From Actinotalea sp. Marseille-Q4924 (GTDB lineage: Bacteria; Actinomycetota; Actinomycetes; Actinomycetales; Cellulomonadaceae): a stretch of DNA of 64,000 bases. The notes under the pieces were generated by a model that worked only from the letters and a program-made list of their open reading frames with translations, did not search any database and was not told where the DNA came from. Made by a program: the position numbers and the translations under genes. How positions within the stretch are numbered: position 1 is the first letter of the stretch; the number at the start of each line of letters is the position of its first letter. The stretch is taken from NCBI RefSeq assembly GCF_916618755.1, contig NZ_CAKAKB010000003.1:62001-126000 (forward strand). Direction: 5' to 3'. Shown one piece after another: positions 33,848 to 59,650 of the stretch.

Positions 33848-34711
33848 TCAGGAGCTGATGTCCTTCGTGGTGAACCGCGCCCACGCGGCCGCCGTGAAGA
33901 CGGCGGTGTAGGCGAGGGCGGACACCACGCCGGGGAGCAGGGCCTCCGTCGCGACGGGGTCACGCAGCAGGTCCGCGAACGCGAACCACCAGTGCGTCGG
34001 CAGGTACTCGTGGATCGGCTCGAGCTGGGACAGCGCGTCGAGGATCTGGCTGGTCAGCGCCACCACGAGCACGGCGATGGTCGCCGCGAGCGGCTGCTCG
34101 GTGAGCGTGGAGATGAACAGGCCGATCGCACCCAGCGCCACCAGGCACAGCGTCAGGTACCCGCAGACCAGGAGCACGCGCCCGAGCCCTTCGGCGAACG
34201 TGAGGGTCGTGCCCGAGATGGTCGGCAGCGGGCCCGTCCCGAAGAGGGCGACCCCGACCGTGCCGCCGACGCCGGCGACGAGCAGCGTCGCGGAGGCGGC
34301 GAAGACGACCATCGCGGCGAGCTTCACGAGCAGCAGCCGGGTCCGCTCGACCGGGACGACGAGCAGGTAGCGCAGGGTGCCCTGGTTGGCCTCGCCCGCG
34401 ACGGCGTCCCCGGCGATCGTCGCGACCGCCGTCGGCAGGAAGAACGGCATCTGGACGAAGAGCGCGGCGAGCGCGACGAAGAGGCCGTTGACCGTGATCT
34501 GGCCGAAGAGGAACGAGTCGCCGTCGCCGGAGCCCGACACCCGGATCGACACCGCGATGATCACGGGGACGGCGGCGAGCACGACGGCGCCCGCGATGTT
34601 GCGGCGCCGCCGGTAGATGAGCCGCAGCTCGGACACGAAGAGCCGCCACGTCGCGCCCCGAGGGCCGGCGTCGTCGGCGACGACGGGCCGCACCGCCTCA
34701 GCCGCTGACAT
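33848..34711 (-). CDS. ABC-2 type permease, cassette 1
   Basis: A 287-residue ABC-2 membrane protein with six membrane segments: an amphipathic entry helix (FVSELRLIYRRRRNIAG), then hydrophobic blocks to the C-terminus. Its ATG (34711) overlaps the ATPase gene by 14 nt, the same overlap as in the paralogous pair at 58.7 kb. The motif GDAVAGEA.GTLRYLL.VPV.RTRLL is shared with that paralogue. It is predicted to form the channel of an exporter driven by the upstream ATPase. Substrate unknown. Confidence 0.85.
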   Translation of the reverse strand: MSAAEAVRPVVADDAGPRGATWRLFVSELRLIYRRRRNIAGAVVLAAVPVIIAVSIRVSGSGDGDSFLFGQITVNGLFVALAALFVQMPFFLPTAVATIAGDAVAGEANQGTLRYLLVVPVERTRLLLVKLAAMVVFAASATLLVAGVGGTVGVALFGTGPLPTISGTTLTFAEGLGRVLLVCGYLTLCLVALGAIGLFISTLTEQPLAATIAVLVVALTSQILDALSQLEPIHEYLPTHWWFAFADLLRDPVATEALLPGVVSALAYTAVFTAAAWARFTTKDISS

Positions 34712-35675
34712 CGAAGCCCTCCCCGGTGAGCTCGACGAACATCTCCTCCAGGTCGGCGGTGCGGACCTCCAGGCCACGCACCGGCACGCCCGCCCGGACG
34801 AGCGCGACGACGACGTCCTCCGGGGCGGTGGCGCCCAGCGTGGCGGTGACGGCGTCGGCGTCGAGGGCCACGGCCGCGAGGCCCAGGCGGTCGAGCACCC
34901 TCGCGGCGCCCGCCGGGTCGCTCGAGCGGACGGCGACGACGGCGGCGCTCCGCGCGCGCAGGTCGGGCAGGGCGTCCTGCGCGACGAGCCGGCCCCGGTG
35001 CATGACGCCCACGTGCGTGCACACCTGCTCCACCTCGGACAGCAGGTGGGTGGAGAGCACGACGGTCGAGCCGGACGCCGCGAGCTCGAGCAGGAGGGAC
35101 CGCACCTCGCGGGTACCCTGCGGGTCCAGCCCGTTGGTGGGCTCGTCGAGGACGAGCAGGTCGCGCGGGCGCAGCAGGGCCGCCGCGAGGCCCAGTCGCT
35201 GCCGCATGCCGAGCGAGTAGTGCCGGTAGCGCTTGCCCGCCGCGGCCGCCAGCCCGACCCGCTCCAGCGCGGCGCCGATCCGCCGGTCGAGGGTGCGCGG
35301 GTCGGTGGTGCGGTCGGCGGCGTCGAGACGCCGCAGGTTCTCGACAGCGGACAGGTAGGGGTGGAACGCCGGCCCCTCGACGAGGGCGCCGACGCGCGGG
35401 AGGACCGCCGCGGCGTCGTCGGGCATGGCGTGACCGAGCAGGAAGCGCTCGCCCGCCGTCGGCTGCAGGAGGCCGAGCAGCATGCGGATCGTCGTCGTCT
35501 TGCCCGAGCCGTTGGGGCCGAGGAAGCCGTAGACGGCCCCGTGCGGCACGGCGAGGTCGACCCCGTCGACGGCGACCTGGCCCGACCGGAAGCGCTTCGT
35601 CAGTCCGCGGGTCGCCAGGGCGAGGTCCGTCGGCGGAGCCGGTGCGAGGGGGACGTCGAGGGCGGGGGCGCTCAC
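34698..35675 (-). CDS. ABC transporter ATP-binding protein, cassette 1
   Basis: A 325-residue ABC-2-type ATPase. Walker A is GPNGSGKTTTIRMLLGL, the signature is YSLGMRQRLGLAAALL, Walker B is LLVLDEPTNGLDPQGTREV, and a C-terminal regulatory part of about 80 residues follows. The GTG start overlaps the stop of the upstream RseB/LolA-like gene (GTGA, 35672-35675). Blocks such as TKRFRSGQVAVDG and VPHGAVYGFLGPNGSGK are nearly identical to the ATPase at 57.8 kb, marking a duplication. Confidence 0.92.
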   Translation of the reverse strand: MSAPALDVPLAPAPPTDLALATRGLTKRFRSGQVAVDGVDLAVPHGAVYGFLGPNGSGKTTTIRMLLGLLQPTAGERFLLGHAMPDDAAAVLPRVGALVEGPAFHPYLSAVENLRRLDAADRTTDPRTLDRRIGAALERVGLAAAAGKRYRHYSLGMRQRLGLAAALLRPRDLLVLDEPTNGLDPQGTREVRSLLLELAASGSTVVLSTHLLSEVEQVCTHVGVMHRGRLVAQDALPDLRARSAAVVAVRSSDPAGAARVLDRLGLAAVALDADAVTATLGATAPEDVVVALVRAGVPVRGLEVRTADLEEMFVELTGEGFDVSG

Positions 35676-36955
35676 CCGGTCGGCCCGGGCGGGGCGGCGG
35701 CCGCGGCCGCCTCGAGCGTGGCGCGGTCCACCGCGCCGACGAGCACCCGGCCGTCGTCGGTGACGAGGACGCTGAGCAGGCGCGACGTGAGCAGCCGGCC
35801 CGAGCCCCACTCACCGGACACGGCCGGCAGGGACTTCAGGAGCGCGGCTGCCTGGGCGGCGGTCGACCCGGTCTCGTCCTCCCCGCCGTGCCCCGGACCG
35901 AAGGGCGCACCGCCGTCGTCGCCGGGCGCCTCGCCCGCGCCGCCGCCGGCGAGCCGGTCCAGCGCTCCCGGGGGCAGCGCCGCCACGAGCACCGACGACC
36001 AGCCGTCGCCCACGAGCTGCGGCTCCGCGTCCGTCGTGGCGTCCGGCACGCCTCCAGGGCCCGGAGCGGCGCCGTCCGCCGCAGCGTCGCCGGGCGCCGG
36101 GGCGGGGCCGTCGCCGTGGCGGGCCGTGAGGTCGACCTCCTCGACCGTCGCACCCGGCGGCGGCGTGAACGTGACGGTGTCCTCGGCCGGCGGCACGAGG
36201 CTGAGGCTCGTGAACCCGACCTCGAGGGCCGGCGCGGCGTGGCCGACCGCGAAGACCTGGACGCGCGTGGGCACCCGGTCCGCGGCGTCGACGGCGATCC
36301 GGACGGACGCCACGAGCGACCCCTCGCCGCGCGGGGTGAGGACGAGCTGGTGGGCGGGTCGGCCCGCGACCGTCACCGGCTCACCGACGGTGACGTCGGT
36401 CGACGGCTCGAGCGCCTGCAGGACGAGGTCGCTCACCTCGCGCGGCGTCAGCGGCGGCACCGCGGCGTCGACACGGGCGCGCAGGTCCGCCGCGGGCGTG
36501 CCCGGGCCGTCGTCGGGCAGGAGGTAGCGGGTGGCGAGGCGGTCGTCGCTCGACCACGTCCACAGGTCCTCGCCGTCGGCGACCACGGTCAGCTCGCCCA
36601 TCCGGCCGTGCAGCGAGACGCGCGAGCGATCGGGCCCGAGCGCCCAGACCCGCAGGGTGTGCTCACCCTCGAGGAGCGACATGGCGTCCGTGGAGGACCC
36701 GGGGCCGGCGTCCGCCGAGATCCCCGGCAACGACGGCAGGCCGAGGTCCGCGCGGTGAACCAGCGTGCCGGACAGCCCCTCGACCTCGGCGGACTGCAGG
36801 TCGTCCAGGAGCTCCGTCGCCGTGCGGTCGGGCAGGTCCGGCGCGGCGGAGGCGACGACGGGGGCCACCAGCCCCGCACCGACGACGGCGACCGCGAGTC
36901 CGGCGGGCAAGGCCCAGCGGACGCCTGGGCGGGGACGGCGGGGTCGCGACGACAT
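35672..36955 (-). CDS. secreted RseB/LolA-like protein, cassette 1
   Basis: A 427-residue exported protein. An N-terminal hydrophobic signal or anchor (LPAGLAVAVVGAGLVAPVVA, about residues 16-35) is followed by a domain resembling the RseB/MucB-LolA fold: LSGTLVHRADLGLPSLP, HTLRVWALGPDRSRVSL, DLWTWSS, VAGRPAHQLVLTPR. The Gly/Ala/Pro/Asp-rich middle is probably disordered. The end, GRLLTSRLLSVLVTDDGRVLVGAV, is shared with the paralogue at 56.4 kb. In proteobacteria this fold binds lipids or lipoproteins; here, with no outer membrane assumed, sensing or handing a lipidated substrate to the ABC-2 transporter is inference. Confidence 0.82.
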   Translation of the reverse strand: MSSRPRRPRPGVRWALPAGLAVAVVGAGLVAPVVASAAPDLPDRTATELLDDLQSAEVEGLSGTLVHRADLGLPSLPGISADAGPGSSTDAMSLLEGEHTLRVWALGPDRSRVSLHGRMGELTVVADGEDLWTWSSDDRLATRYLLPDDGPGTPAADLRARVDAAVPPLTPREVSDLVLQALEPSTDVTVGEPVTVAGRPAHQLVLTPRGEGSLVASVRIAVDAADRVPTRVQVFAVGHAAPALEVGFTSLSLVPPAEDTVTFTPPPGATVEEVDLTARHGDGPAPAPGDAAADGAAPGPGGVPDATTDAEPQLVGDGWSSVLVAALPPGALDRLAGGGAGEAPGDDGGAPFGPGHGGEDETGSTAAQAAALLKSLPAVSGEWGSGRLLTSRLLSVLVTDDGRVLVGAVDRATLEAAAAAAPPGPTG

Positions 36956-37018
36956 GCCCCCATCCTCGCCCCGGTCCGGGAGCGCGTCGAGGTCCGCAGG
37001 TCCGACGCCGCGCGCGCC

Positions 37019-37034
37019 CTCAGTCCTCCCTCAG
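37019..37034 (+). promoter_or_regulatory. CTCAG-N6-CTCAG direct repeat, cassette 1
   Basis: CTCAG at 37019-37023 and 37030-37034, an 11-bp period, in the divergent gap between the RseB/LolA-like gene and the Nudix fusion. OmpR-family regulators usually bind such one-turn direct repeats. The same arrangement lies at 56363-56378. Confidence 0.5.
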
Positions 37035-37060
37035 GGGGATGCGGGCACCAGGATGGGCCC

Positions 37061-38797
37061 ATGGTGCGACGCAGCGCGGGACTCCTCCCGTACCGCCGGC
37101 GGGACGGCGTCGTCGAGGTCTTCCTCGGCCACATGGGCGGGCCCCTCTGGGCGCGCAAGGAGGAGGGCGCGTGGACGGTCCTCAAGGGCGAGCACGACGA
37201 CGACGAGGACGCGGACACGGCGGCCGACCGCGAGTTCGCCGAGGAGACGGGCCTCGAGCCCCCGCCGGGGCGGCGACTGCCCCTCGGGACCGTGCGGCAG
37301 AAGGGTGGCAAGGAGGTCACGGCCTGGGCCGTGGAGGCCGACCTGGACGCGGGCGCCGCCGTCAGCGGCACCTTCGAGATGCCCTGGCCGCCGCGGTCCG
37401 GGCGGGTGCAGACGTTCCCGGAGATCGACAGGTTCCGGTGGTGGCCGCTGGCGCAGGCCCGCGAGGTCGTCGTCGGGGCGCAGACGGAGCTCCTCGACCG
37501 CCTCGAGGCAGCGCTCGGTGCCGCGGGGGAGGACGACCCGCCGGTGGTGGTGCGGCTCCCGGACGGGACCCTCAAGCACCGCTCCCCGCTGACCGGCACC
37601 GAGGTGTGGACGGTGCCGCGTCGGGCCCACCGGCCGCACCACGACCGGCCCGGTGAGGGTCCGCGGCGGCCGCTCGACGCCGCCGCGGCGGGGCGGGTCT
37701 GCGCGTTCTGCCCCGGACGGCACCTGGAGACGCCGCCGGAGAAGGCGCGGATGCTGTCGACCGGGGAGGTCCAGCGGCACGTCCCTGCGTCCGCGCTCGG
37801 AGCGACGGAGCCCGAGCTGCGCCGGTTCGCCAACCTCTTCGAGATCCTGTCGGTGGACTACTGGCGGACGGACCACGGCTGGGCGGTGCCCGACGAGGTG
37901 CAGGCGCGGGCGGCGGCCTACGTCGCCCAGCCGCTCGGTCGCGAGCACGTGCTCGGGGTGCTGCGCCGGCGTGCCGCGGCGGAGGGCGTCGACGACGCCG
38001 CCTGGGCCGCGCTCCCGGACGACGCCCGGCTGGAGCGTGCGGTCGACCTGTTCGCCGGGGCGCACGACGTCGTCGCCGCCCGCAGGCACCACGTGGACGG
38101 GGCGCGGTTCGAGGACGAGCTGGCCGGTCCGGGCACGATGACGCCGGACGAGCACCACCGGTTCGTCGCCTTCACGCTCGACGCGGTGCGCTCGCTGTAC
38201 GCCGAGCAGCCGCACGCCCGGTACGTCGTCGCGTTCCAGAACTGGCTGCGCCCGGCCGGGGCGTCGTTCGACCACCTGCACAAGCAGGTCATCGCCATCG
38301 ACGAGCCCGGGCCGCGCACGGCTGCGGTCCTGCGCCGGCTGCGCGAGGACCCCGACGTGGTGCGTCGCCGGGTGCTGGCCCACGCCGAGGAGCGCGGGCT
38401 CGTCGTCGCGCGGACGGACCACGCCGTCGCGCTGGCCGGCGTCGGGCACACCTACCCCGCGTTCGAGGTGTGGTCGCTGGACGACCGGCTGCCGTGGGAG
38501 CACGACGACGAGCAGGTCCGGGGGATGTCGGACCTGCTGCACGCGCTGCACGCCGCGACGGGTGTCGCGATGCCGTCGAACGAGGAGTGGCACCACCGCC
38601 CGCCCGACGCCGCCGAGCGGCTGCCGTGGAACGTCGTCCTGAAGTGGCGCGACGCGACGGCCGCGGGGTTCGAGGGCGCGACGGGGATCCACGTGACGAC
38701 GGTGGACCCCTGGGTGCTGCGCGCGGACACGGTCGCGCGGCTGCATGAGCTGCGCGGCACGGGGGTCGTCGCCGAGGTGCGTCTCGGCGACGAGTGA
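37061..38797 (+). CDS. Nudix-DUF4921 (GalT-like) fusion protein
   Basis: A 578-residue two-domain protein. Residues 1-160 are a Nudix hydrolase with a perfect Nudix box (G-x5-E-x7-REFAEETGL). From about residue 165 (VRLPDGTLKHRSPLTGTEVWTVPRRAHRP) a complete DUF4921 domain follows, related to galactose-1-phosphate uridylyltransferase/HIT folds. It has zinc-type cysteines in CAFCPGRHLETPPE and the histidines of FDHLHKQ. DUF4921 proteins are normally free-standing. Fusion suggests coupled handling of a nucleoside-diphosphate or nucleotide-sugar substrate. It is divergent from cassette 1 with the CTCAG repeat between. Confidence 0.85.
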   Translation: MVRRSAGLLPYRRRDGVVEVFLGHMGGPLWARKEEGAWTVLKGEHDDDEDADTAADREFAEETGLEPPPGRRLPLGTVRQKGGKEVTAWAVEADLDAGAAVSGTFEMPWPPRSGRVQTFPEIDRFRWWPLAQAREVVVGAQTELLDRLEAALGAAGEDDPPVVVRLPDGTLKHRSPLTGTEVWTVPRRAHRPHHDRPGEGPRRPLDAAAAGRVCAFCPGRHLETPPEKARMLSTGEVQRHVPASALGATEPELRRFANLFEILSVDYWRTDHGWAVPDEVQARAAAYVAQPLGREHVLGVLRRRAAAEGVDDAAWAALPDDARLERAVDLFAGAHDVVAARRHHVDGARFEDELAGPGTMTPDEHHRFVAFTLDAVRSLYAEQPHARYVVAFQNWLRPAGASFDHLHKQVIAIDEPGPRTAAVLRRLREDPDVVRRRVLAHAEERGLVVARTDHAVALAGVGHTYPAFEVWSLDDRLPWEHDDEQVRGMSDLLHALHAATGVAMPSNEEWHHRPPDAAERLPWNVVLKWRDATAAGFEGATGIHVTTVDPWVLRADTVARLHELRGTGVVAEVRLGDE

Positions 38798-38813
38798 CCG
38801 TCGTCGGGTCGGC

Positions 38814-39146
38814 TCAGCGGACGAGGCGCCCCTCGTCGATCGACAGGTGGACCGTCTCGTCGTCGTCCACCGACGCGACGTCGTCGCCGCTCACCCAGGT
38901 GTCACCCCCGAGCAGCCCCTTGTGGATGCGCAGGTAGCCCGTGCGGGCCAGCCAGTGCGCCGCGGAGGCGGGAGGGCCGTCGTCGCCGAGGAGGGTCTCC
39001 TGCCCTTCGGCGGTCACGGCGTCCGGGTCCCCCAGGTGCACGTCCTTGACCTTGCCCAGCTTGTGGCCGTCGACGTCCACGACGGCCATGCCCTCCCTCA
39101 CCAGGGTGATCGCGCGGGTCCCGTGTCCGAAGGCGTCGGCGCTCAT
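38814..39146 (-). CDS. DUF2171/PRC-barrel-like small protein
   Basis: A 110-residue protein. The segment MAVVDVDGHKLGKVKDVHLGDPDAVTAEG resembles the PRC-barrel/DUF2171 beta fold found in stress-related and photosynthetic proteins. The second half (RIHKGLLGGDTWVSGDDVASVDDDETVHLSID) repeats the beta pattern. It has no membrane segment. ATG 39146 has GAGGAGGAG upstream. The role is unknown. Confidence 0.65.
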   Translation of the reverse strand: MSADAFGHGTRAITLVREGMAVVDVDGHKLGKVKDVHLGDPDAVTAEGQETLLGDDGPPASAAHWLARTGYLRIHKGLLGGDTWVSGDDVASVDDDETVHLSIDEGRLVR

Positions 39147-39322
39147 GGCTCCTCCTCGAGCTCGTGGTCCTCCCAGTGAACGACGCCCCGCCGTCGTCGG
39201 CACGTCGAGCCGCGGCGGGTGGGCACCGCCGGGGACGTTGGTACCTGGACCGGACTGCTCGACGGGCGTGGCCTGGGGGAGTCGCCGGTGGCCGGCGGCG
39301 CGACATCGGGGAGGAGGACGAC
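39147..39322. other. divergent intergenic region
   Basis: A 176-nt region between the DUF2171-like and GyrI-like genes. Strong ribosome-binding sites sit at both ends. I see no clear promoter hexamers. Confidence 0.4.
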
Positions 39323-39781
39323 ATGGACGTGGAGACGGTGGACCTGGCGCCTGGGCGGCTCGTGGGGGTGCACGAGGTGGTCGCGGTGCCGGACCTCACG
39401 GACTTCTTCGGTCGTGCCTTCGGGACCGCGGCCGCGGCGGTGGCGGCCGTGGGTGCGCCGCCGTCCGGGCCGGCGGTGGCGCTGTACCGCGGCGACGTCA
39501 CCGACCGGGTCGACGTCACGGCGGGGTTCCCCGTGCCGCTCGACGCCCCGGCGCCGGGGGACGGCCTGGCGGACGTGCGGCTGCCGGAGGGCCCCGCCGT
39601 GGTCACCGTGCACGTCGGTCCCTACGACACCCTGCGGGACACCTATGCGCGTCTGGAGCAGTGGATGTCCGGACGCGGGCTCGTCGCGCGCGACGTCATG
39701 TGGGAGGAGTACCTCGACGGCCCGGATGCCGAGCCGGACCCGGCGCGCTGGCGGACCCGGGTCGTCATGCCGGTCCGCTGA
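39323..39781 (+). CDS. GyrI-like small-molecule-binding protein
   Basis: A 152-residue stand-alone GyrI-like (AraC effector-binding) domain. The pattern VETVDLAPGRLVGVHEVV, a central ALYRGDVTDRVDVTAGFPV and a C-terminal VTVHVGPYDTLRDTYARLEQWM with late DVMWEEYLDGPDAEPDPARWRT fit the SHS2-type ligand-binding fold. There is no DNA-binding domain, so it is probably a soluble binder or hydrolase of small hydrophobic molecules. GAGGAGGA precedes ATG 39323. Confidence 0.75.
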   Translation: MDVETVDLAPGRLVGVHEVVAVPDLTDFFGRAFGTAAAAVAAVGAPPSGPAVALYRGDVTDRVDVTAGFPVPLDAPAPGDGLADVRLPEGPAVVTVHVGPYDTLRDTYARLEQWMSGRGLVARDVMWEEYLDGPDAEPDPARWRTRVVMPVR

Positions 39782-39815
39782 GCGGGGCGGCCGCCGCGCG
39801 GTCGGTGCCGGGGCG

Positions 39816-39821
39816 TACGGT
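39816..39821 (+). promoter_or_regulatory. -10 element of RecF-like ATPase gene (leaderless)
   Basis: TACGGT, 6 nt before ATG 39828. Confidence 0.5.
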
Positions 39822-39827
39822 TCGGCG

Positions 39828-40934
39828 ATGATCCGGACGATCGCCGTCGAGGGGTACCGCTCGCTGCGCCACCTCGTCGTCGGTCTGGGGACGCTGACCG
39901 TGGTCACCGGGCCGAACGGCTCGGGCAAGACGAGCGTCTACCGTGCGCTGCGGCTGCTCGCCGACCTGACGCGGGACGGCGCGCTGTCCAGCCTCGCGCG
40001 CGAGGGCGGCCTCCGGTCGGCGCTGCACGCGGGGCCGTGGACCGGTGAGCGCGTGTCCCTCCGCCTGGGGTTCGCCGACGACGACCTGTCGTACGCCGTC
40101 GACCTCGGCATGCCGCAGCCGCCGACGCCCTTCCCGCTCGACCCCGAGGTGAAGTCCGAGGTCGTGTGGGCGGGTCCGCACCTGCGCGCCGGCGCCGTCC
40201 TCGCCGACCGGAAGGGCCCCCGGGTGCGGATCCGGGACCGCGACGGGGAGCTGGTCGTCGCCCCGTGGCAGGTGCGCGCGCACGAGTCGCTCGTCGCGAC
40301 GCTCGCGGACCCGGCGGAGGCCCCCGAGCTCTACGCGATCCGGGAGCAGGCGCGGCGGTGGCGCTTCTACGACCACGTCCGCACCGATGCCGACGCGCCC
40401 GCTCGGCGGCCGGGGGTCGCCACGTTCACGCCGGTGCTGGCGGCCGACGGCGCTGACCTGGCCGCCGCGCTGCTGACGATCCAGCGGGTCGGCGTGGCGC
40501 AGACGCTCGACAGCGCGGTGGACGCCGCGTTCCCGGGATGCACCCTCCAGGTCGGCGAGGACGCCGACGGCGGCTGCCGCCTCACGCTGGACCAGCCGGG
40601 CGTGCGGCGGCCCCTGGGCGTGGCCGAGCTCTCCGACGGCACCGTGCGCTTCCTGCTGCTCGCCGCGGCGCTGCTGTCCCCGCGCCCGCCGGCGCTCCTG
40701 GTCCTCAACGAGCCCGAGGCGAGCCTGCACCCCAGCCTCATGCCGGCGCTCGCCGCCCTGGTGGCGGACGCGGCGACGCGCTCGCAGGTCGTCGTCGTGA
40801 CGCACTCCGGCGAGCTCGTCCGGGCGCTGCGTGCGGACGCGGACCTCCTCGAGCTGCACAAGGACGGCGGCGCGACGGGCGTCGTCGGCAGCCTCGCCTT
40901 CGAGGGGCCGGAGTGGTCGTGGCCGCGCCGCTGA
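39828..40934 (+). CDS. AAA/ABC-type ATPase (RecF/OLD-like, AAA_21)
   Basis: A 368-residue ATPase. It starts IRTIAVEGYRSLRHLVV, the usual RecF/SMC-like entry strand, then Walker A GPNGSGKTS near residue 30. Late blocks are AELSDGTVRFLLLAAALL (signature-like), LLVLNEPEASLHPSLMPAL (Walker B) and VVVTHSGELVRAL (H-loop). There is no TOPRIM nuclease domain as in OLD proteins, and no toxin-like neighbour as in many defence pairs. Single genes of this type are common and of unknown function. A -10 hexamer fixes the ATG. Confidence 0.8.
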   Translation: MIRTIAVEGYRSLRHLVVGLGTLTVVTGPNGSGKTSVYRALRLLADLTRDGALSSLAREGGLRSALHAGPWTGERVSLRLGFADDDLSYAVDLGMPQPPTPFPLDPEVKSEVVWAGPHLRAGAVLADRKGPRVRIRDRDGELVVAPWQVRAHESLVATLADPAEAPELYAIREQARRWRFYDHVRTDADAPARRPGVATFTPVLAADGADLAAALLTIQRVGVAQTLDSAVDAAFPGCTLQVGEDADGGCRLTLDQPGVRRPLGVAELSDGTVRFLLLAAALLSPRPPALLVLNEPEASLHPSLMPALAALVADAATRSQVVVVTHSGELVRALRADADLLELHKDGGATGVVGSLAFEGPEWSWPRR

Positions 40935-40975
40935 GGGGCGCCCCGCTGCGACGGTGACGCGTCCCGTCGTCGGAC

Positions 40976-41578
40976 CTACGTCGCCGCGCGTGCGTGGAGC
41001 TCGAGGAGTGCCAGGCGGAGCCGCTCGGCGAGCCCGGGCGCCGCGTCCGCCGGCAGAGCCGAGACGTCGAACCACGCGACGTGCTCGCTCTCGTCGCTGA
41101 CGGCAGGCGTCGCGTCGGCGGGGGCGAGGGCGACGTAGCCGACGTCCCAGTGCGCCCGGCACCGGCCGAACGACGCGCCCAGCTCGTGCCGGTCGAGCTC
41201 CGCGGGGAGCAGCCGGTCACCGACGGCGCCGACGAGCCGGAGCCCGGCGATGCCGCTCTCCTCGCGCGCCTCCCGCAACGCGGTCATGGCCAGCGAGGTG
41301 TCCGCCGCCTCGGCGTGCCCACCCGTCTGCACCCAGAACCGGCCCTTGCGGTGGAAGCAGAGCAGCACCCGGCTCAGGTCGGGCGTGAGGATCCAGCACG
41401 AGCCGGTGAGGTGCTCCGGCCCTCCGTCACGCGAGAGCGCCGCGGGCCCGAGGGTGCGCACGAGCGACGCGTAGCGGGCGGCCAGCCGGCGCTGGCCGTC
41501 GTCCACCGGCGTCCAGGTGCGCAGGTCGTCGAGGAAGGCCTCCGCAGGGTCGGGCGTCCCGGCCGCGGCGGTCGGCAT
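40976..41578 (-). CDS. Nudix hydrolase
   Basis: A 200-residue protein with a Nudix domain in residues 55-190: GCWILTPDLSRVLLCFHRKGRFWVQTGGHAEAADTSLAMTALREAREESGI, where the Nudix box reads GGHAEAADTSLAMTALREAREESG. It is predicted to cleave a nucleoside diphosphate linked to another moiety; the substrate is undetermined. The ATG (41578) shares one base with the stop of the molybdate transporter gene (TGATG), so the two are translationally coupled. Confidence 0.85.
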   Translation of the reverse strand: MPTAAAGTPDPAEAFLDDLRTWTPVDDGQRRLAARYASLVRTLGPAALSRDGGPEHLTGSCWILTPDLSRVLLCFHRKGRFWVQTGGHAEAADTSLAMTALREAREESGIAGLRLVGAVGDRLLPAELDRHELGASFGRCRAHWDVGYVALAPADATPAVSDESEHVAWFDVSALPADAAPGLAERLRLALLELHARAAT

Positions 41579-42839: not shown

Positions 42840-42845
42840 GCGTCC

Positions 42846-51804: not shown

Positions 51805-52494
51805 ATGACCGCACTCGACTCCGCGCACGTCCTCGTCGTCGGCGCGACGGGCGGCCTCGGCTCGGCGATCAGCCGCCGGCTCGCCGACCGCGGCGCCCGG
51901 CTGTCCCTCAGCGCACGGTCCGCCGACCGGCTCGACGCCCTCGCCGGCGAGCTGGGCGACGCCGTCGTGGGCACGCACGCGGCCGACATGACGTTCCCGG
52001 CCGCACCGGCCGACGTGGTCGGCGCCGCCTCGGCGGCCCGTGCGCTCGACGGTGTCGTGTTCGCGGCGGGTGTGGTCGCCTTCGGGCCCGTGACGGAGCT
52101 CGACGACGACGTCCTCGACGCCCTCCTGCTGCTCAACCTCGTGGCGCCCGTGCGGCTCGCGCGTGCGGCGGTGCCCGTGCTCGCCGACGGGGGCTTCCTG
52201 GCGAACGTGAGCGCCGTCGTCGCCGAGCGCCCCACGGCGGGGATGGCGGCCTACTCCGCCGCCAAGGCGGGCCTGACCGGGTTCGACGCCGCGCTCGCCC
52301 ACGAGCTGCGCCGTCGGAGGGTCCGGGTGCTCGACATCCGTCCGCCCCACACCGAGACGGGGCTGGCGGGCCGGCCGATCGCCGGTCAGGCGCCTCCGCT
52401 GGGGCAGGGTCTGGCGCCCGACGACGTCGCGGCCCGCGTCGTCCGGGCGGTCGAGGCGGACGAGCGGGACCTGCCGGCGTCGGCCTTCGCCTGA
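51805..52494 (+). CDS. short-chain dehydrogenase/reductase
   Basis: A 229-residue classical SDR. The NAD(P)-binding motif VVGATGGLGSAISRRL (about residues 11-26), the Asn of FAAGVV and the catalytic Tyr and Lys in AAYSAAKAGL are intact. It is slightly shorter than the usual 250, with a reduced C-terminus. The Arg after the third strand (SARSADR) hints at NADP. The substrate is unknown and no operon partner exists. Confidence 0.88.
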   Translation: MTALDSAHVLVVGATGGLGSAISRRLADRGARLSLSARSADRLDALAGELGDAVVGTHAADMTFPAAPADVVGAASAARALDGVVFAAGVVAFGPVTELDDDVLDALLLLNLVAPVRLARAAVPVLADGGFLANVSAVVAERPTAGMAAYSAAKAGLTGFDAALAHELRRRRVRVLDIRPPHTETGLAGRPIAGQAPPLGQGLAPDDVAARVVRAVEADERDLPASAFA

Positions 52495-52498
52495 GGGT

Positions 52499-52882
52499 TC
52501 AGCCGGCGAGGTCGGCGACGCCGAGCGCCAGTGCGAGGGCGCTGAGGACGAACGGCAGCGCCATCTGGCGCCGCGGCTGGGGGAGCGGCAGACGGACCTC
52601 CCGGGTGTCCGGCAGCTGCATGAGGGTGACCTGCTCGCCGACCTCGTACGCCCTCGGCTGGTGCGAGGCCGGCGGCAGGAGCCGGCGCTCACCGGTGGCC
52701 CTGTCGCGGTACGCGACCGTCGGGGCGTACAGCAGATGGCTGCTCCCCGAGATGGAGGACCGCTTGACGGCGACCTCGACCACCTCCCCGGGCAGGGGCT
52801 CCGCGCCGGGCGGGATGCGGTGCCGGCGCACCATGTGCACGCCGGCGGCCGCGAGCAGCACGGCCGCCACGACGAGCACCAT
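52499..52882 (-). CDS. DUF3592-like membrane protein
   Basis: A 127-residue protein. An N-terminal membrane helix (MVLVVAAVLLAAAGVHMV) and a C-terminal one (LPFVLSALALALGVADLAG) flank a beta-rich exterior domain (PGEVVEVAVKRSSISGSSHLLYAPTVAYRD) like DUF3592. ATG 52882 lies 8 nt after the amidohydrolase stop, so they are probably co-transcribed. No function is known. Confidence 0.7.
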   Translation of the reverse strand: MVLVVAAVLLAAAGVHMVRRHRIPPGAEPLPGEVVEVAVKRSSISGSSHLLYAPTVAYRDRATGERRLLPPASHQPRAYEVGEQVTLMQLPDTREVRLPLPQPRRQMALPFVLSALALALGVADLAG

Positions 52883-52890
52883 GGTGGTCC

Positions 52891-54102
52891 TCAGCCCTCG
52901 GCGAGCCGGTCCAGCGCCAGCCCGGCGAGCACGGCCGCGGCGACGGGCAGCGCCGCGTCGTCGAACCGCGCCTGCGGCGAGTGGTTGTACGGGGCGGTCG
53001 CCGGGTCCTCGCCGGCCGGCGTCGCGCCGAGGAAGAGGAAGGCCCCCGGGACCTCCTGCAGCACGTAGGCGAAGTCCTCCGCACCGGAGACGGGCTGCTT
53101 CGCCGTCTCGTACGCGTCCGGCCCGACGACGGCGCGCGTGACCCGCTCCGCGCGGTCCACCTCGGCGGGGTCGTTGACGGTCACCGGGTAGCCGCGCTCG
53201 TACGTGACCTCCGCGGTGAGGCCGTGCGCCGCGGCGATGTTCTCGGCGACGCGCACGAGCCGGTCGGGGATGGCCTCGTGGTGCTCGCGGGAGAACGTCC
53301 GGACGGTCGCGTCGAGCTGCGCCGTCTCGGGGATGACGTTGTCGGTCGTGCCGGCCGCCACCCGCCCCACGGAGACCACCACGGGGTCGTGCGCGTCGAA
53401 CTGCCTCGTGACGACGGTCTGGAGCGCCAGGACGATCTCGGCGGCGACCGTCACCGGGTCCGCCGCGAGGTGCGGCATCGACCCGTGGCCGCCGCGGCCG
53501 CGCACGGTCACGTAGAGCTGGTCCGACGCCGCCATCGCGGTCCCCGCACGGCCGGTGACGACGCGCAGCGGGGTGTTGGACGACGCCACGTGGATGGCGT
53601 AGGCGGCGACGACCCGCTCGCCCGCGGCGTCGAGGACACCCTCGTCGATCATGTACCGGGCGCCGTGGAAGCCCTCCTCGCCCGGTTGGAACATGAGGAC
53701 GACCGAGCCCGCCAGCTCCTCGCGGCGCGCGGCGAGGAGCCGTGCCGCGCCCACCAGCCCCGCGACGTGCAGGTCGTGCCCGCACGCGTGCATGAAGCCG
53801 GTGTGCTCGCTCGTGAACGGCTCACCCGTCTCCTCCGTCACGGGCAGCGCGTCCATGTCCCCGCGCAGGAGCACGGCCGGCCCGGGGCGAGCGCCCCGCA
53901 GCACGGCCACCACGGAGCCGACGGCCGTCCCGGTCGTGACCTCCAGCCCCAGCCCCTCGAGCGCGGCCAGGACGCGCGCCTGCGTCATGGGCACCTCGAG
54001 TCCCTGCTCGGGGATCCGGTGCAGGTCGTGGCGCAGCGCCGCCAGCTCCGCGGCCATCGCCTCCGCGTCCGCGAGCAGGTCCTGGAGCAGGTCGTGGGGC
54101 AC
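52891..54102 (-). CDS. M20 family amidohydrolase (hippurate hydrolase-like)
   Basis: A 403-residue M20D peptidase/amidohydrolase. Metal ligands are seen in HACGHDLHVAGL (Cys and His), QPGEEG (Glu), AIHV (His) and the late NHSP. RGDMDALPV is the N-terminal family block. These enzymes hydrolyse N-acyl amino acids, hippurate or peptidic amides in the cytosol. GTG 54102 has GGAGG 5 nt upstream. Which amide is cleaved is not clear. Confidence 0.9.
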   Translation of the reverse strand: MPHDLLQDLLADAEAMAAELAALRHDLHRIPEQGLEVPMTQARVLAALEGLGLEVTTGTAVGSVVAVLRGARPGPAVLLRGDMDALPVTEETGEPFTSEHTGFMHACGHDLHVAGLVGAARLLAARREELAGSVVLMFQPGEEGFHGARYMIDEGVLDAAGERVVAAYAIHVASSNTPLRVVTGRAGTAMAASDQLYVTVRGRGGHGSMPHLAADPVTVAAEIVLALQTVVTRQFDAHDPVVVSVGRVAAGTTDNVIPETAQLDATVRTFSREHHEAIPDRLVRVAENIAAAHGLTAEVTYERGYPVTVNDPAEVDRAERVTRAVVGPDAYETAKQPVSGAEDFAYVLQEVPGAFLFLGATPAGEDPATAPYNHSPQARFDDAALPVAAAVLAGLALDRLAEG

Positions 54103-54224
54103 GTGCGCCTCCGGTCGTGGTCGCGCCTCGTGGGCGGCGTGGTCGGGTCGTCCGGTGCGACCGTACCCGTCCCGGCCCGCCGCCGTGCCCTCTGCCGTCC
54201 CCTCTGCCGTCCCCTCCCTGCGGC

Positions 54225-55649
54225 TCAGGGCGGCGGGACGTCCACGCGGGCGCGGAGCCCGCCCAGCGGTGCCTCCGCCAGCGTGACGTCGCCGCCGTGC
54301 TCCCGGGCGATCTCGCGCACGATCGCCAGGCCCAGCCCGCTCCCGCCCGCCTCGCGCTCGCGGGCCTCGTCGAGGCGCACGAACCGCTCGAACACCCGGT
54401 CACGGTCGTGGGCGGGGATGCCGGCGCCGTCGTCGTCGACGGTCACCGACCCCTGCCCGACGGTGACGCGCACCCGCGAGGTGGCGTGGCGCACCGCGTT
54501 GTCCACGAGGTTGCGGACCACGCGGCCGAGCGCGGGCGCGTCGCCGACGGCGGACCCGGTCCCGTCCACCTCCACGCGGACGTCCGGCCGGCGCAGGACC
54601 GCGCCGGACCCGCCGACGGCGTCGCGCGCGACGTCCACGAGGTCGACCTCCTCCCGCGTCCGGGGAGCGGAGCCGACCCGCGCCAGGAGCAGGAGGTCGT
54701 CGACGAGCCCCTGCATGCGCAGCACCTCGCCGACGAGGTCGTCGGCCAGCTCGTCGGTGCGGTAGACCTCCGGGTGCTGCCGGGCCACCTCCAGGCTCGC
54801 GCGGAGGGTCGCCAGCGGCGAGCGCAGCTCGTGGGCCGCGTCGGCGACGAACCGCCGCTGCCGGGCCGACGCCGTCTCCAGCCGGTCCAGCATCTCGTTG
54901 AGCGTGCGCGCGAGGGCGGAGACCTCGTCGTCGGCGGGGCTGACGGGAAGGGAGCCCGGGCCGCCGGCGCGGGCGACCTGGGCGGCGGCGGAGCGCATCC
55001 GCTCGACGGGGTGCAGCGCGCGCCCCAGCACCAGCCACACCGCCACCGCGAGGATGCCGGTGAGCGTCGGCACGACGCCGACCAGGGACAGGCTCAGCGC
55101 CCGCAGCAGTCCCTGGACCTCGGCGAGCGGCATCGTGGCGACCACGGTGACCTGCTCGCCGCGCCACGTCGTCGGGACGACGGCGACGCGTGCCTGGCCG
55201 TCGTAGGCGCTCTGCGACGTCGGGCTGACCACCCCGCTCGTGGCGGTCGCGGCGCGCAGGCGGGCGATCTCGTCCGGCGGCAGGACGGGCAGCGTGCGGC
55301 TGGCGCTGGGAGAGGTGGCGACGACGAGCCCGTCGCGGTCGAGCACCTGCACGATCTCCCCGGGCTCCTCGACCGGCAGCGCGTCCGGCAGGCTGTCGGA
55401 GGCGACGAGTTCCGCGGTCGTCGTCGCCCGTTCGCGGACGATCCCGTCGAGCTCGGCGACGCGCGAGCGGGACAGGACGGTCGTCAGCGTCAGCGCCCCC
55501 GCGATGAGCGTGACGCAGAGCAGGCCGGCGGTGAGCACGGTGAGCCGGGTCCGCAGGGACCGGCTCCGCCACGGGTCGGCGCCGTCCCTGCCGGTGTCCC
55601 CGCGACCCGCGTCAGGTCGCTCGACGGGCGGTGCGGTGCCCGCGTGCAC
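54225..55649 (-). CDS. sensor histidine kinase
   Basis: A 474-residue membrane kinase. Two membrane helices (about residues 36-58 and 185-210) enclose an exterior sensor domain of about 125 residues. HAMP, then HisKA with the phospho-His in FVADAAHELRSPLATLRASLE, then HATPase_c with NLVDNAVRHA, DDGAGI and GSGLGLAIVREI complete it. GTG 55649 lies 6 nt after the response-regulator stop. It likely senses the cell envelope and controls the adjacent RseB/LolA-ABC cassette. Confidence 0.93.
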   Translation of the reverse strand: MHAGTAPPVERPDAGRGDTGRDGADPWRSRSLRTRLTVLTAGLLCVTLIAGALTLTTVLSRSRVAELDGIVRERATTTAELVASDSLPDALPVEEPGEIVQVLDRDGLVVATSPSASRTLPVLPPDEIARLRAATATSGVVSPTSQSAYDGQARVAVVPTTWRGEQVTVVATMPLAEVQGLLRALSLSLVGVVPTLTGILAVAVWLVLGRALHPVERMRSAAAQVARAGGPGSLPVSPADDEVSALARTLNEMLDRLETASARQRRFVADAAHELRSPLATLRASLEVARQHPEVYRTDELADDLVGEVLRMQGLVDDLLLLARVGSAPRTREEVDLVDVARDAVGGSGAVLRRPDVRVEVDGTGSAVGDAPALGRVVRNLVDNAVRHATSRVRVTVGQGSVTVDDDGAGIPAHDRDRVFERFVRLDEAREREAGGSGLGLAIVREIAREHGGDVTLAEAPLGGLRARVDVPPP

Positions 55650-55655
55650 GGCGGC

Positions 55656-56309
<654 letters not shown>

Positions 56310-56362
56310 CTGACCAGCATCCCACCGCGGAGGCCCCGGACGGCTGAGGCGGGCCTGATGAC

Positions 56363-56378
56363 CTCAGCGCCGTCTCAG
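56363..56378 (+). promoter_or_regulatory. CTCAG-N6-CTCAG direct repeat, cassette 2
   Basis: CTCAG at 56363-56367 and 56374-56378 (11-bp period), 23 nt before ATG 56402 and about 54 nt upstream of the divergent response-regulator gene. An inverted CTGAG (56344-56348) lies nearby. This is the same layout as at 37019-37034. Confidence 0.5.
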
Positions 56379-56401
56379 TGCCCCGGGGGGACGCTCTTCG
56401 C

Positions 56402-57703
56402 ATGACCCAGAGCTCCACCCGCACCGGCGCCACCACCGCCGGCGCCCCCCGCTCCCGGCGCACGGCGTGGGCCGTGCCCGCCGGTGTCGCCATCGCCGTC
56501 GCCGCGGCGTTCGCCACCCCGCCGCTGCTCGCGAGCGCAGGCGACGACTCCCTCCCCGACATCACCCCGGAGCAGCTCGCCGAGCGCGTCGCGGCCGCGG
56601 AGCCCGCCCCGCTGTCGGGGACCGTCGTGCACACGGCCCGCCTCGGGCTGCCCGAGCTGCCGCTCACCGAGGCGACGGGCGCCGACCCGGTCGCCCTGCT
56701 CGGCGGCTCCTCGACGCTACGGGTCTGGACGGACGGCGCGGAGCGTTCCCGCATCGCGCTCCTGGGTGCCGCGTCGGAGTACTCGCTCGTCACCGACGGG
56801 CCCGACGCCTGGACGTACTCGAGCACGACGGACGAGGTCGTCCACTACACGCTCGACGCCGCGGGCCGGGCGCAGTACGAGGCCGCCGCGGCCGACGTGC
56901 GCGCCGGCCTGGCCCCCGACGTCGTCGGCACGCTGCCCACGCCCGAGGAGGCGGCACGCACCGCGCTGGAGCAGGTCCAGGGCTACTCCGCCGTCACGCT
57001 GGACGCGCAGACCACGGTGGCCGGTCGGGCCGCGTACCAGCTCGTGGTGACGCCGCGGGACGCGGAGACCCTCGTGGGCCGGGTCGTCGTCGCCGTCGAC
57101 GCGGAGACCTCGACGCCGCTGCGCGTGCAGGTCTGGAGCGTCCAGGACGCGGACGTGCCGGCGCTGGAGATCGGCTTCACCGACGTGACGTTCGGCCTGC
57201 CCGATGACGGCGTCCTGACCTTCTCGACACCGGCGGGGGCGACCGTCCGCGAGGTCGTGATGCCGATGATGGAGCCGCAGGAGCCGGGCGCGCTGGAGGA
57301 GCTGCTCGCGGCCGACCCGCCGGCCCCGGGTGAGCCGATCGACCCGGCGCTGCTGCCCGAGGGCGTCGCGACGACGGGGACCGGCTGGGAGACCGTGACC
57401 GAGGTCGCCGGCGTCGACGTCGCCGCGATCCTCGCCGGTGACCCCGCCGCGCTCACCTCGCTGCCCGAGTCCGAGCGGCTCATCGGCTCGGACCGCGCGC
57501 AGGACCTCATCTCGGAGTTCCTGCCGGACGAGGAGCAGGCGAGCGCCTTCGAGCTGGACGGCGCCGCGCTCTACGACAGCCTCACCACCGAGGTCCCCGA
57601 GGGTCGCCTGCTGACGTCGGCCCTGCTCAGCGTGCTCGTGACCACGGACGGGCGGGTCCTGTACGGCGCCGTGCCGGCCGAGGTCCTGCGCGGACTGGCC
57701 TGA
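56402..57703 (+). CDS. secreted RseB/LolA-like protein, cassette 2
   Basis: A 433-residue paralogue of the 36-kb protein. The N-terminal anchor is VPAGVAIAVAAAFATPPLLA. Shared blocks are LSGTVVHTARLGLPELP, STLRVWTDGAERSRIALLG, DAWTYSS, VAGRAAYQLVVTPR and the ending GRLLTSALLSVLVTTDGRVLYGAV. It should lie outside the membrane. It is the first gene of a three-gene unit with its own ABC-2 transporter, divergent from the two-component system. Lipid or lipoprotein binding is inferred from the fold resemblance only. Confidence 0.82.
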   Translation: MTQSSTRTGATTAGAPRSRRTAWAVPAGVAIAVAAAFATPPLLASAGDDSLPDITPEQLAERVAAAEPAPLSGTVVHTARLGLPELPLTEATGADPVALLGGSSTLRVWTDGAERSRIALLGAASEYSLVTDGPDAWTYSSTTDEVVHYTLDAAGRAQYEAAAADVRAGLAPDVVGTLPTPEEAARTALEQVQGYSAVTLDAQTTVAGRAAYQLVVTPRDAETLVGRVVVAVDAETSTPLRVQVWSVQDADVPALEIGFTDVTFGLPDDGVLTFSTPAGATVREVVMPMMEPQEPGALEELLAADPPAPGEPIDPALLPEGVATTGTGWETVTEVAGVDVAAILAGDPAALTSLPESERLIGSDRAQDLISEFLPDEEQASAFELDGAALYDSLTTEVPEGRLLTSALLSVLVTTDGRVLYGAVPAEVLRGLA

Positions 57704-57740
57704 CAGGCCCGAGGACCGCTGCCATGGGGGTCGCCACGGG

Positions 57741-57746
57741 TAGCGT
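57741..57746 (+). promoter_or_regulatory. internal -10 element before ATPase gene, cassette 2
   Basis: TAGCGT, 7 nt before GTG 57754. It favours that GTG over ATG 57724 and suggests an extra promoter for the transporter genes. Confidence 0.5.
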
Positions 57747-57753
57747 TCCGGTC

Positions 57754-58740
57754 GTGAACGTCCCGCAGCCGGAGGGCCGGTCCGAGCGGGCGGCCCCGGA
57801 GCGAGACCTGGCCGTGCGGACCGCGCACCTCACGAAGCGGTTCCGCTCGGGTCAGGTGGCCGTCGACGGGATCGACCTCGAGGTGCCGCGCGGCGCGGTC
57901 TTCGGCTTCCTCGGTCCGAACGGCTCGGGCAAGACGACGACCATCCGGATGCTGCTGGGTCTGGTCCGCCCGACCGAGGGCCGGGCGTGGCTGCTCGACG
58001 GCCCGATGCCGGACGCGGGGCCGACGGTCCTGCCGCGGGTCGGTGTCCTCGTCGAGGGCCCGGCGTTCCAGCCGTACCTCAGCGGTCGGCGCAACCTCGC
58101 CCGGCTCGACGCGAACGACGCGACCGCCGACCCGCGGACGTCCGGGCGGCGCATCGACGAGGCGCTCGAGCGCGTGGGCATGGCGGCCGCCGCCGCGAAG
58201 CCCTTCCGGCAGTACTCCCTGGGCATGAAGCAGCGGCTGGGCCTGGCCGCCGCGCTCCTGCGGCCCCGGGAGCTGCTCGTCCTGGACGAGCCGACCAACG
58301 GCCTGGACCCGCAGGGCACTCGTGAGGTGCGGGTCCTCATCCGCGAGCTGGCCGACGCGGGGACGACCGTCCTCGTGTCCTCGCACCTCCTCAGCGAGAT
58401 CGAGCAGGTGTGCTCCCACCTCGGCATCATGAGCCGCGGGCGTCTCCTCGTGCAGGGCGAGCGGCACGTCGTGATGGGCGTGGCGACGCCGCACGTTCAC
58501 GTCACCACGACGACGGACCACGCGCCCCGGGCGGCCGAGGTCCTGCGCCGGCTGGGTGTCGGTGGGGTGACCCGCGAGGGGGCCCTGGTCCACGGTGTGC
58601 TCGACGGCGTGGGACCGGCCGCCGTCTCCTCCGGGCTCGTCGGTGCCGGCGTGGACCTGCTCGGCCTGGAGGTCCGCCGCCAGAGCCTCGAGGAGCTGTT
58701 CGTGCGTCTCACGGGGGAGGGCTTCGATGTCGCCCGCTGA
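57754..58740 (+). CDS. ABC transporter ATP-binding protein, cassette 2
   Basis: A 328-residue ABC-2-type ATPase. Walker A is GPNGSGKTTTIRMLLGL, the signature is YSLGMKQRLGLAAALL, Walker B is LLVLDEPTNGLDPQGTREV, and the C-terminus ends VRLTGEGFDVAR. It is closely similar to the 35-kb ATPase along its whole length, diverging mainly in the last 100 residues. The start was placed at GTG 57754 from the -10 element. It overlaps the permease gene by 14 nt. Confidence 0.92.
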   Translation: MNVPQPEGRSERAAPERDLAVRTAHLTKRFRSGQVAVDGIDLEVPRGAVFGFLGPNGSGKTTTIRMLLGLVRPTEGRAWLLDGPMPDAGPTVLPRVGVLVEGPAFQPYLSGRRNLARLDANDATADPRTSGRRIDEALERVGMAAAAAKPFRQYSLGMKQRLGLAAALLRPRELLVLDEPTNGLDPQGTREVRVLIRELADAGTTVLVSSHLLSEIEQVCSHLGIMSRGRLLVQGERHVVMGVATPHVHVTTTTDHAPRAAEVLRRLGVGGVTREGALVHGVLDGVGPAAVSSGLVGAGVDLLGLEVRRQSLEELFVRLTGEGFDVAR

Positions 58741-59650
58741 CGTCGCCGGGGCGCGGCGTCCCGCGGCGCACCCCGGTGGGGTGCTCGGGGGGCCCGCGAC
58801 CGACCCGGCCGCGGAGTGGCTGCCCCGGCCCGGCGCCTTCGGTCGGATGCTGCGCAGCGAGATGGCGCTCGTGTTCGGCCGACGCCGCAACGTCGCGCTG
58901 CTGTCCGGCCTCGCCGCCGTGCCCCTGCTGCTGGGCCTCGTCCTCTTCGTCGCGCAGGACACGGCGCTGGCCGGGCAGGGGCCGGGGTTCGTCGGCCGGG
59001 TCACGGGCAACGGCCTGTTCCTGGTCGTGGCGTCGCTGTTCCTGTGCCTGCCCTTCCTCCTGCCGCTGACCATCGGCATCGCGACGGGCGACGCCGTCGC
59101 GGGGGAGGCGGCCGGCGGCACCCTGCGGTACCTGCTCTCCCTGCCGGTTCGGCGGACGCGGCTGCTCGTCGTCAAGGCGCTCGCCACGCTGGCGTTCGTC
59201 GGGGCGGCCGTGCTCGGCATCGCCCTCGTGGCGCTCGCGGCCGGGTCCGCACTGTTCGGCCTGTCCGACCTCACCCTGCTGTCCGGGGCGACCATCCCGG
59301 TCGCCGACGGCGTCCTGCGCATGGCCGGCGTCGTCGCGTACGTGGCGCTCTCGCTGACCGGCCTGGTCGCCGTCGGGCTGTTCTACTCGACTCTCACCGA
59401 GGTGCCGGTCGGCGCCATGGCGGGGACCGTGGTCACCGCGGTGGTGTCGGCGGTGCTCGACACCCTGCCGCAGCTGTCCGCGATCCATCCAGCGCTGCTG
59501 ACGCACCACTGGCTGGACTTCGCCGAGTTCCTGCGGCTGGAGGTCGACCCCGCCGTCCTCGGTCAGGGCCTGGCCGTGCAGGCGGCCTGGGTCGCCGTGT
59601 TCGGGGCGCTGGCGTGGAGCCGGTTCACCACCGCAGACGTCACGTCCTGA
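58727..59650 (+). CDS. ABC-2 type permease, cassette 2
   Basis: A 307-residue ABC-2 permease with six membrane segments. Shared landmarks with cassette 1 are the RMLRSEMALVFGRRRN entry helix, GDAVAGEAAGGTLRYLLSLPVRRTRLL and LFYSTLTEVPVGAMAGTVV. A longer Pro/Gly-rich N-terminus (about 30 residues) is cassette-2 specific. The ATG lies inside the ATPase gene end with the same 14-nt overlap as in cassette 1. Substrate unknown. Confidence 0.86.
   Translation: MSPADVAGARRPAAHPGGVLGGPATDPAAEWLPRPGAFGRMLRSEMALVFGRRRNVALLSGLAAVPLLLGLVLFVAQDTALAGQGPGFVGRVTGNGLFLVVASLFLCLPFLLPLTIGIATGDAVAGEAAGGTLRYLLSLPVRRTRLLVVKALATLAFVGAAVLGIALVALAAGSALFGLSDLTLLSGATIPVADGVLRMAGVVAYVALSLTGLVAVGLFYSTLTEVPVGAMAGTVVTAVVSAVLDTLPQLSAIHPALLTHHWLDFAEFLRLEVDPAVLGQGLAVQAAWVAVFGALAWSRFTTADVTS

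Follow-up and report, generated by a model that had tools for sequence, protein, structure and literature searches.

A LolA/RseB-like exported protein, an ABC-2 exporter and a divergent two-component system form a candidate envelope-surveillance module in Actinomycetota

Introduction

Why would an actinomycete carry two sets of genes that each join an exported protein to its own ATP-binding cassette (ABC) exporter, and why does one of them stand back to back with a two-component system (TCS)? The question is raised by a 64,000-nucleotide stretch of the Actinotalea sp. Marseille-Q4924 genome (contig NZ_CAKAKB010000003.1, positions 62,001 to 126,000; here called the window), which holds the two sets, cassette 1 and cassette 2. 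To our knowledge, few roles have been assigned to LolA/RseB-type proteins outside Gram-negative bacteria, and little has been established about how monoderm actinomycetes monitor lipids or lipophilic agents at the membrane surface. From sequence comparison, we propose that cassette 2 and the divergent kinase/regulator pair constitute one envelope-surveillance module, in which the regulator would switch on an amphiphile-binding protein together with its exporter, a reading to which we give an even chance of being right. Each kind of component is known; their combination, an ABC module under TCS control whose exported protein is of the LolA/RseB type, appears to be new. A literature search that covered few subscription papers found no description of the module or of the DNA box described below.

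Results

Coordinates are given in the window, and the genes concerned are as follows.

56402-57703, plus strand: cassette 2 exported protein, 433 amino acids (translation)
57754-58740, plus strand: cassette 2 ABC ATPase, GTG start as given (Pfam ABC_tran, 5.5e-27)
58727-59650, plus strand: cassette 2 ABC-2 permease (Pfam ABC2_membrane_2, 2.7e-09)
55656-56309, minus strand: OmpR/PhoB-type response regulator (Pfam Response_reg, 6.8e-26; Trans_reg_C, 1.8e-19)
54225-55649, minus strand: sensor histidine kinase (Pfam HAMP, HisKA and HATPase_c)
35672-36955, minus strand: cassette 1 exported protein, 427 amino acids (translation)
34698-35675, minus strand: cassette 1 ABC ATPase (Pfam ABC_tran, 3.7e-26)
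33848-34711, minus strand: cassette 1 ABC-2 permease (Pfam ABC2_membrane_2, 5.4e-11)

Both cassettes have the order exported protein, ATPase, permease, and the six genes translate with 0 internal stops. A sequence-only reading of this DNA had described that order, a 14-nucleotide (nt) overlap of the ATPase and permease genes in both cassettes, and a kinase and response regulator divergent from cassette 2; all three descriptions held, with the overlaps at 34698-34711 in cassette 1 and 58727-58740 in cassette 2 and the kinase and the regulator, of OmpR type, confirmed by Pfam. Both ATPases and both permeases exceed the Pfam cut-offs. In cassette 1, the first two genes, for the exported protein and the ATPase, share 4 nt (35672-35675); in cassette 2 they are 50 nt apart, or 20 nt if the ATPase starts at an alternative in-frame ATG at 57724. 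The same reading had called the ATPase cores nearly identical, which is true of core stretches but not overall, since the ATPases share 63% identity over 314 columns (exported proteins, 40% over 408; permeases, 46% over 276).

To see how far this arrangement extends, we used alignments of the exported protein as queries against overlapping genome samples, in which absences are upper limits because the number of candidates scored in each genome was capped. The sample from the family had matches in 29 of its 61 genomes, that from the order in 41 of 149, that from the class in 101 of 295 and that from the phylum in 37 of 296. The 213 exported-protein rows were reduced to 169 by removing duplicates and to 168 loci by counting the frameshifted locus L163 once; 15 further matches lie outside this set (10 in the class sample, 6 of them in family f6; 4 in the phylum sample; 1 in the family sample). 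The ATPase gene adjoins the exported-protein gene in 140 of these 168 distinct Actinomycetota relatives (141 ATPase loci if L004, cut by a contig end, is included), and a divergent TCS is present in 79. By context, 82 loci have the ATPase without the TCS, 58 have both (L004 included), 20 have the TCS without the ATPase and 7 have neither; the remaining locus, L164, has the ATPase and a less similar TCS and was assigned by hand as the 79th TCS locus. In these classes "ABC" is judged from the ATPase alone, and "no TCS" means none resembling that of the window within about 1.2 kb; one locus whose upstream side is cut off counts as non-TCS, and L114, with overlapping frames, was relabeled ABC plus TCS after its context was read. 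Wherever orientation was scored, the regulator gene is divergent (78 of 78 TCS loci). The trio, whose confinement to close relatives would have counted against the sequence-only reading, thus recurs across the phylum.

The 14-nt spacing recurs as well: of the 136 ATPase genes with a readable stop, 99 have a start codon placed exactly 14 nt before their stop codon ends, a count that rests on start-codon position and not on individually verified permease frames. The overlap looks like a family trait, and, because the trio recurs across the phylum and this start is so frequent, the cassette pattern exceeds chance. The window's 3.64-Mb genome contains two copies of the exported protein. A contig scan with a single protein as the query returned 2 loci, and the nearest named loci are from Actinotalea, an actinomycete; there were 0 relatives on viral contigs, and among plasmids the one matching record was an 11.85-Mb Nonomuraea replicon.

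Some loci depart from these arrangements. In genus g33 of family f6, where the ATPase is present at 20 of the 26 loci in our set, the exported-protein gene of L068, L180, L197, L199, L201 and L205 has neither ABC nor TCS genes next to it. In L163 (genome G466, 2 contigs, 99% complete), the exported-protein gene is spread over two frames and is either a pseudogene or a sequencing error.

We then examined the DNA between the divergent genes. A direct repeat, TCTCAG-N5-TC[T/A]CAG, is common to TCS-linked loci, and a -10-like element follows it at a constant distance. At cassette 2 the predicted elements are the following.

56362-56378, plus strand: predicted response-regulator operator CCTCAG-CGCCG-TCTCAG, 1 mismatch to TCTCAG-N5-TCTCAG
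56390-56395, plus strand: predicted -10-like element GACGCT (pattern nAnnnT at conserved spacing; from consensus and sequence)

The predicted operator ends 23 nt before the cassette 2 ATG (56402). Boxes were scored on the forward strand with up to 2 mismatches to TCTCAG-N5-TCTCAG, and Markov-1 resampling, which supplied the expected numbers, and the non-TCS loci served as controls. The box is present in 75 of 78 TCS loci (1.5 expected) and in 1 of 89 others (0.8 expected). By class, it occurs in 56 of 58 ABC-plus-TCS loci (1.2 expected), 19 of 20 TCS-only loci (0.3 expected), 1 of 82 ABC-only loci (0.8 expected) and 0 of 7 loci with neither, and L164 has it. Counted by group, it is found in 34 of 35 genera and all 15 families with ABC-plus-TCS loci, and in all 6 genera and all 3 families with TCS-only loci. 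The three TCS loci counted as boxless are L117, L184 and L163, in which a box is visible by eye. A count on both strands with letter shuffles gave 54 of 56 ABC-plus-TCS, 20 of 21 TCS-only, 4 of 83 ABC-only (1.2 expected; L164 is one of the 4) and 0 of 7 loci with neither.

When 74 distinct promoters, drawn from the 76 boxed loci of 78, were aligned on the box, the -10-like CAnnnT had its A in 96% and its T in 99%. The ATG often lies 7 nt beyond this element, from which a leaderless transcript is predicted; the same distance from the T of the element at cassette 2 suggests that its transcript is leaderless too. A reverse box points toward the regulator gene in 16 of 78 loci, 10 with at most 1 mismatch and 5 others overlapping the forward box. 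Upstream of cassette 1 there is a chance-level match to the box and no operator. A TCS-linked direct repeat that has a period of about 11 bp, sits at the -35 position and is followed by a -10 at a fixed distance has the properties of an OmpR/PhoB-type operator, and PhoB binds pho boxes at the -35 position in this manner. Given the shared repeat and the fixed -10 spacing at TCS loci, it is probable that the response regulator turns on the exported-protein operon via the predicted box.

Across the window's genome, 7 boxes with at most 1 mismatch were found, 1 of them at the module (backward control pattern, 0). We claim no regulon, because the remaining six are located within or next to unrelated open reading frames. 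One box of a single mismatch (L216, G000:C3:179878-179894) lies 182 nt before a gene that by eye encodes a putative secreted lipoprotein, a possible second target of the regulator. Among 22 genomes, the 14 with a TCS have 15 perfect boxes, 9 at the module, and the 8 chosen as non-TCS have 5, with 0 at the module. The box fits neither the CutR motif TAWATAAA (PMC12802291) nor the Corynebacterium glutamicum MprA motif TKTTAAGAAM (PMC12113857), as given in the accessible parts of those papers.

What, then, is the exported protein? In cassette 2, it comprises a signal or anchor segment at about residues 24 to 46 (by eye), a LolA/RseB-like region at about 107 to 285 and a C-terminal domain at about 323 to 433. 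A 168-row profile aligned by hhalign to Escherichia coli LolA over 143 columns, covering residues 107 to 285, with an E value of 4.5e-6 and a probability of 87%; the same profile gave 0.0076 over 60 residues of RseB, at a probability of only 5%, and at least 0.25 for five unrelated E. coli control proteins. A 19-row profile gave 8e-4 to LolA and 0.11 to RseB. Searched against the PDB at E values of up to 1, a 74-row profile returned 14 sequences: 12 LolA (best, 4.6e-4), 1 MucB (0.37) and 1 unrelated. Among the 74 members, Pfam matches at E values of up to 0.01 were to MucB_RseB (45), DUF2092 (28), LolA_like (12) and LolA (9). The cassette 2 protein itself matched none of these four families in that scan, and both cassettes' proteins gave sub-threshold matches to DUF2092 or MucB_RseB (Pfam) and lolA only. 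For MucB_RseB, the cassette 2 protein scored 0.011 in the Pfam scan and 0.0058 when the whole genome was searched in six frames and it was the sole match, both values being sub-threshold. The LolA/RseB-like character assigned to the exported protein earlier therefore stands, by profile, for residues of about 107 to 285 and does not extend to the C-terminal 110 or so residues.

These last residues contain the conserved positions G326, G328, W329, V332, G401, D416, G417, G422 and V424, and they matched no known family. The idea that they correspond to the RseB C-terminal domain found no support: PF17188 was unmatched in the genome at E values of up to 10, the E. coli control matching, and a C-terminal profile reached only 0.09 to 0.19 against E. 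coli RseB. Lipoprotein handling, which had also been put forward, found no support, as a lipobox was present in 0 of 168 exported proteins (first 60 matched residues). Actinomycetes of this kind are not known to have an outer-membrane Lol pathway.

In a tree of the exported proteins, those of cassettes 1 and 2 fall in separate, well-supported groups, and a two-tree approximately unbiased (AU) test on 44 of the 168 rows rejected their grouping as sisters (p-AU 4.5e-116). For these reasons the cassettes are ancient paralogues that did not arise by local duplication; this and the predicted operator at cassette 2 only set our account apart from the first reading. With the labels in use before L164 was changed, the tree implies no fewer than 10 changes in TCS state and 9 in ABC state.

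The 20 loci with the exported protein and TCS in the absence of ABC genes, 19 of which have the box, show which parts remain together. Our permease search covered 17 genomes. In 7 family f94 genomes with TCS-only loci, it gave 0 matches at E values of up to 1e-5 across whole genomes; among genomes of f8 and f99 in which the locus is TCS-only, the only matches were distant (best, 36% identity) and at other places, and four trio genomes had matches 45 to 47% identical. Because the exported protein and TCS are kept in TCS-only loci whose genomes show no trio-like permease, they belong together even without the exporter. The ABC loss in f94 would be recent or partial, since three other f94 loci (L185, L189 and L200) do carry the ATPase. 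The reduced arrangement of protein, divergent TCS and operator, with no ABC genes, can be seen at L065, at L137 and at f94 loci such as L165, L166, L168 and L169.

Discussion

We propose the following mechanism. The kinase would detect a disturbance on the membrane's outer side, and the phosphorylated regulator would bind the tandem TCTCAG box at the -35 of the exported-protein promoter and turn on all three genes of cassette 2. A signal segment that is cleaved slowly or not at all would keep the exported protein on that outer side, where its LolA/RseB-type fold would bind an amphiphile (a lipid, a lipid-linked precursor or a lipophilic toxin) that the ABC-2 transporter would extrude, or otherwise supply or remove. 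Whether the exported protein is free or loaded would probably tell the kinase if the problem persists, and cassette 1 would be the same exporter unit under other control. There are precedents for parts of this scheme: the hydrophobic cavity of MucB senses lipids, according to the available part of PMC7400510, and the exported accessory proteins CseA and AfsQ3 have been proposed to modulate Streptomyces kinases, according to that of PMC9739842. A bolder form, which we entertain tentatively, has the exported protein respond to lipids and act as a co-sensor in control of its own kinase, with the ABC-2 exporter emptying or loading the protein as an optional effector. If true, this would amount to an envelope-sensing system of three components and often five genes, present across Actinomycetota and recognizable by its box, and feedback of the exported protein on the kinase would link lipid-binding chaperones to two-component signaling.

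Several observations weigh against these proposals. The 82 of 168 loci that have the ATPase without an adjacent TCS mean that most exporter units are regulated otherwise. The box was first spotted by eye in the same TCS loci, so that its counts are no independent test, and many boxed loci are related, hence the counts by genus; moreover, the box may mean that the exported protein is a mere target gene without feedback. Tree distances of the exported protein correlate with those of the kinase sensor part (r 0.89, partial 0.36) and of the catalytic part (0.88, 0.37), and these values do not discriminate between the two. The 19-row profile gave no significant result against the PDB, LolA chains having E values of at least 0.2, level with an unrelated protein.

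Three other explanations must be considered. The first is drug or toxin efflux, in which a membrane-active antibiotic is pumped out by the ABC-2 transporter and sensed directly by the TCS, the exported protein being a nonsignaling accessory scavenger. The ATPases do score best against the drrA and lantibiotic-protection subfamilies, below the cut-offs (for the DrrA-type exporter NCBIfam TIGR01188, 197 and 178 bits, the cut-off being 312), and TCS-ABC resistance modules such as LnrJK are common in Gram-positive bacteria. However, as efflux the module would make no sense at the 20 loci that have the protein and TCS without adjacent ABC genes, including those of the 7 f94 genomes that have no permease match, and the single copy in each of 11 matched f6/g33 genomes is unlike an acquired resistance gene; we consider efflux unlikely. 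Persistence of the protein, divergent TCS and box where ABC genes are absent fits a second explanation, signaling only, which would make the exported protein a TCS co-sensor and Gram-positive counterpart of RseB, with the ABC genes a separate, dispensable output. The MucB/RseB N-terminal Pfam domain in 45 of 74 members agrees with it, but the RseB C-terminal domain was not detected and the 82 ATPase loci without an adjacent TCS make the transporter the more widespread partner, so that we regard signaling only as quite improbable. A NosDFY-like mechanical device, in which the ATPase and permease would move the exported partner to mature or insert an envelope component, possibly a metalloprotein, without transport, is the least credible of the three: although the TCS resembles heavy-metal subfamilies (below the cut-off) and the next gene at the TCS-only locus L184 resembles a cation-diffusion facilitator by eye, Cys, His and Met are absent from the invariant and near-invariant columns of the 74-protein alignment, any Cys occurs in the matched region of only 16 of 168 proteins, and no copper-enzyme gene was recognized by eye, with no profile scan, in 24 wide contexts.

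The surveillance module we favor resembles known systems in part. Like RseB/MucB, the protein is exported, has an N-terminal LolA-like region (with the MucB_RseB domain noted above) and is linked to an envelope-type regulator; unlike RseB/MucB, its partner is a kinase/regulator pair, it usually adjoins ABC-2 exporter genes and, compared with RseB, no RseB C-terminal domain is detected. No anti-sigma/ECF sigma pair was recognized by eye in the 24 wide contexts, again with no profile scan. In a distant relative (L081, 8045-8965, plus strand), a sigma-70-like gene, of the primary type by eye, lies about 0.8 kb upstream of and divergent from the exported-protein gene. A LolA-like region encoded beside an ABC transporter recalls LolA/LolCDE; here, the permease is of the ABC2_membrane_2 type (the Pfam scan matched ABC2_membrane_2, _4 and _3 only, not a LolC/E type), no outer-membrane target is expected, there is an extra C-terminal domain and control is by a TCS. 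Mycobacterial LprG and LppX are LolA-like lipid-binding lipoproteins, LprG having a major facilitator superfamily (MFS) partner. They share with our proteins the pairing of an actinobacterial LolA-like protein with a transporter, and they differ in being lipoproteins with an MFS transporter; we know of no comparable TCS for them.

An exported accessory protein encoded with a TCS is also found in CseA-CseBC and AfsQ3-AfsQ1/Q2 of Streptomyces. As described in the available text of PMC9739842, CseA is a lipoprotein and AfsQ3 a potential one, unlike the lipobox-free proteins here, which further differ in their LolA-like region, usual ABC exporter and divergent gene order. GerS of Clostridioides difficile is likewise a Gram-positive LolA-type protein that regulates a partner, activating an amidase; it is a lipoprotein, and the available text of PMC8496864 mentions neither an ABC exporter nor a TCS for it.

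The module is widespread, including in genomes resembling Streptomyces, and its predicted operator makes its control directly testable; the conserved gene set points to a little-studied way of watching the cell envelope. We take the f6/g33 genomes to be Streptomyces, in which the locus would correspond to SCO4583-SCO4586. In the three f6/g33 loci that were read (L068, L070 and L072), a polyprenyl diphosphate synthase gene, recognized by eye, adjoins the exported-protein gene (3 of 3). In the accessible parts of the respective papers, SCO4585 is named an ABC transporter protein (PMC3897704), SCO4586 an ABC transporter (PMC6414726) and SCO4582 a sigma-E regulon membrane protein (PMC6767563), and those parts contain no functional study of this set.

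The window also holds neighbors of other kinds. A LuxS gene (32607-33083, plus strand; PF02664, 1.8e-49) lies right beside cassette 1, and the frame after it, ending at 33835, resembles an MTA/SAH nucleosidase by eye, possibly making an AI-2/S-ribosylhomocysteine pair. A gene for an agmatine/peptidyl-arginine deiminase family protein (28995-30080, plus strand; PAD_porph, 1.3e-104) precedes a frame that by eye resembles a nitrilase, and the two may form a putrescine pathway pair. A Na+/H+ exchanger gene (59778-61817, minus strand; PF00999, 1.6e-30) is convergent with cassette 2.

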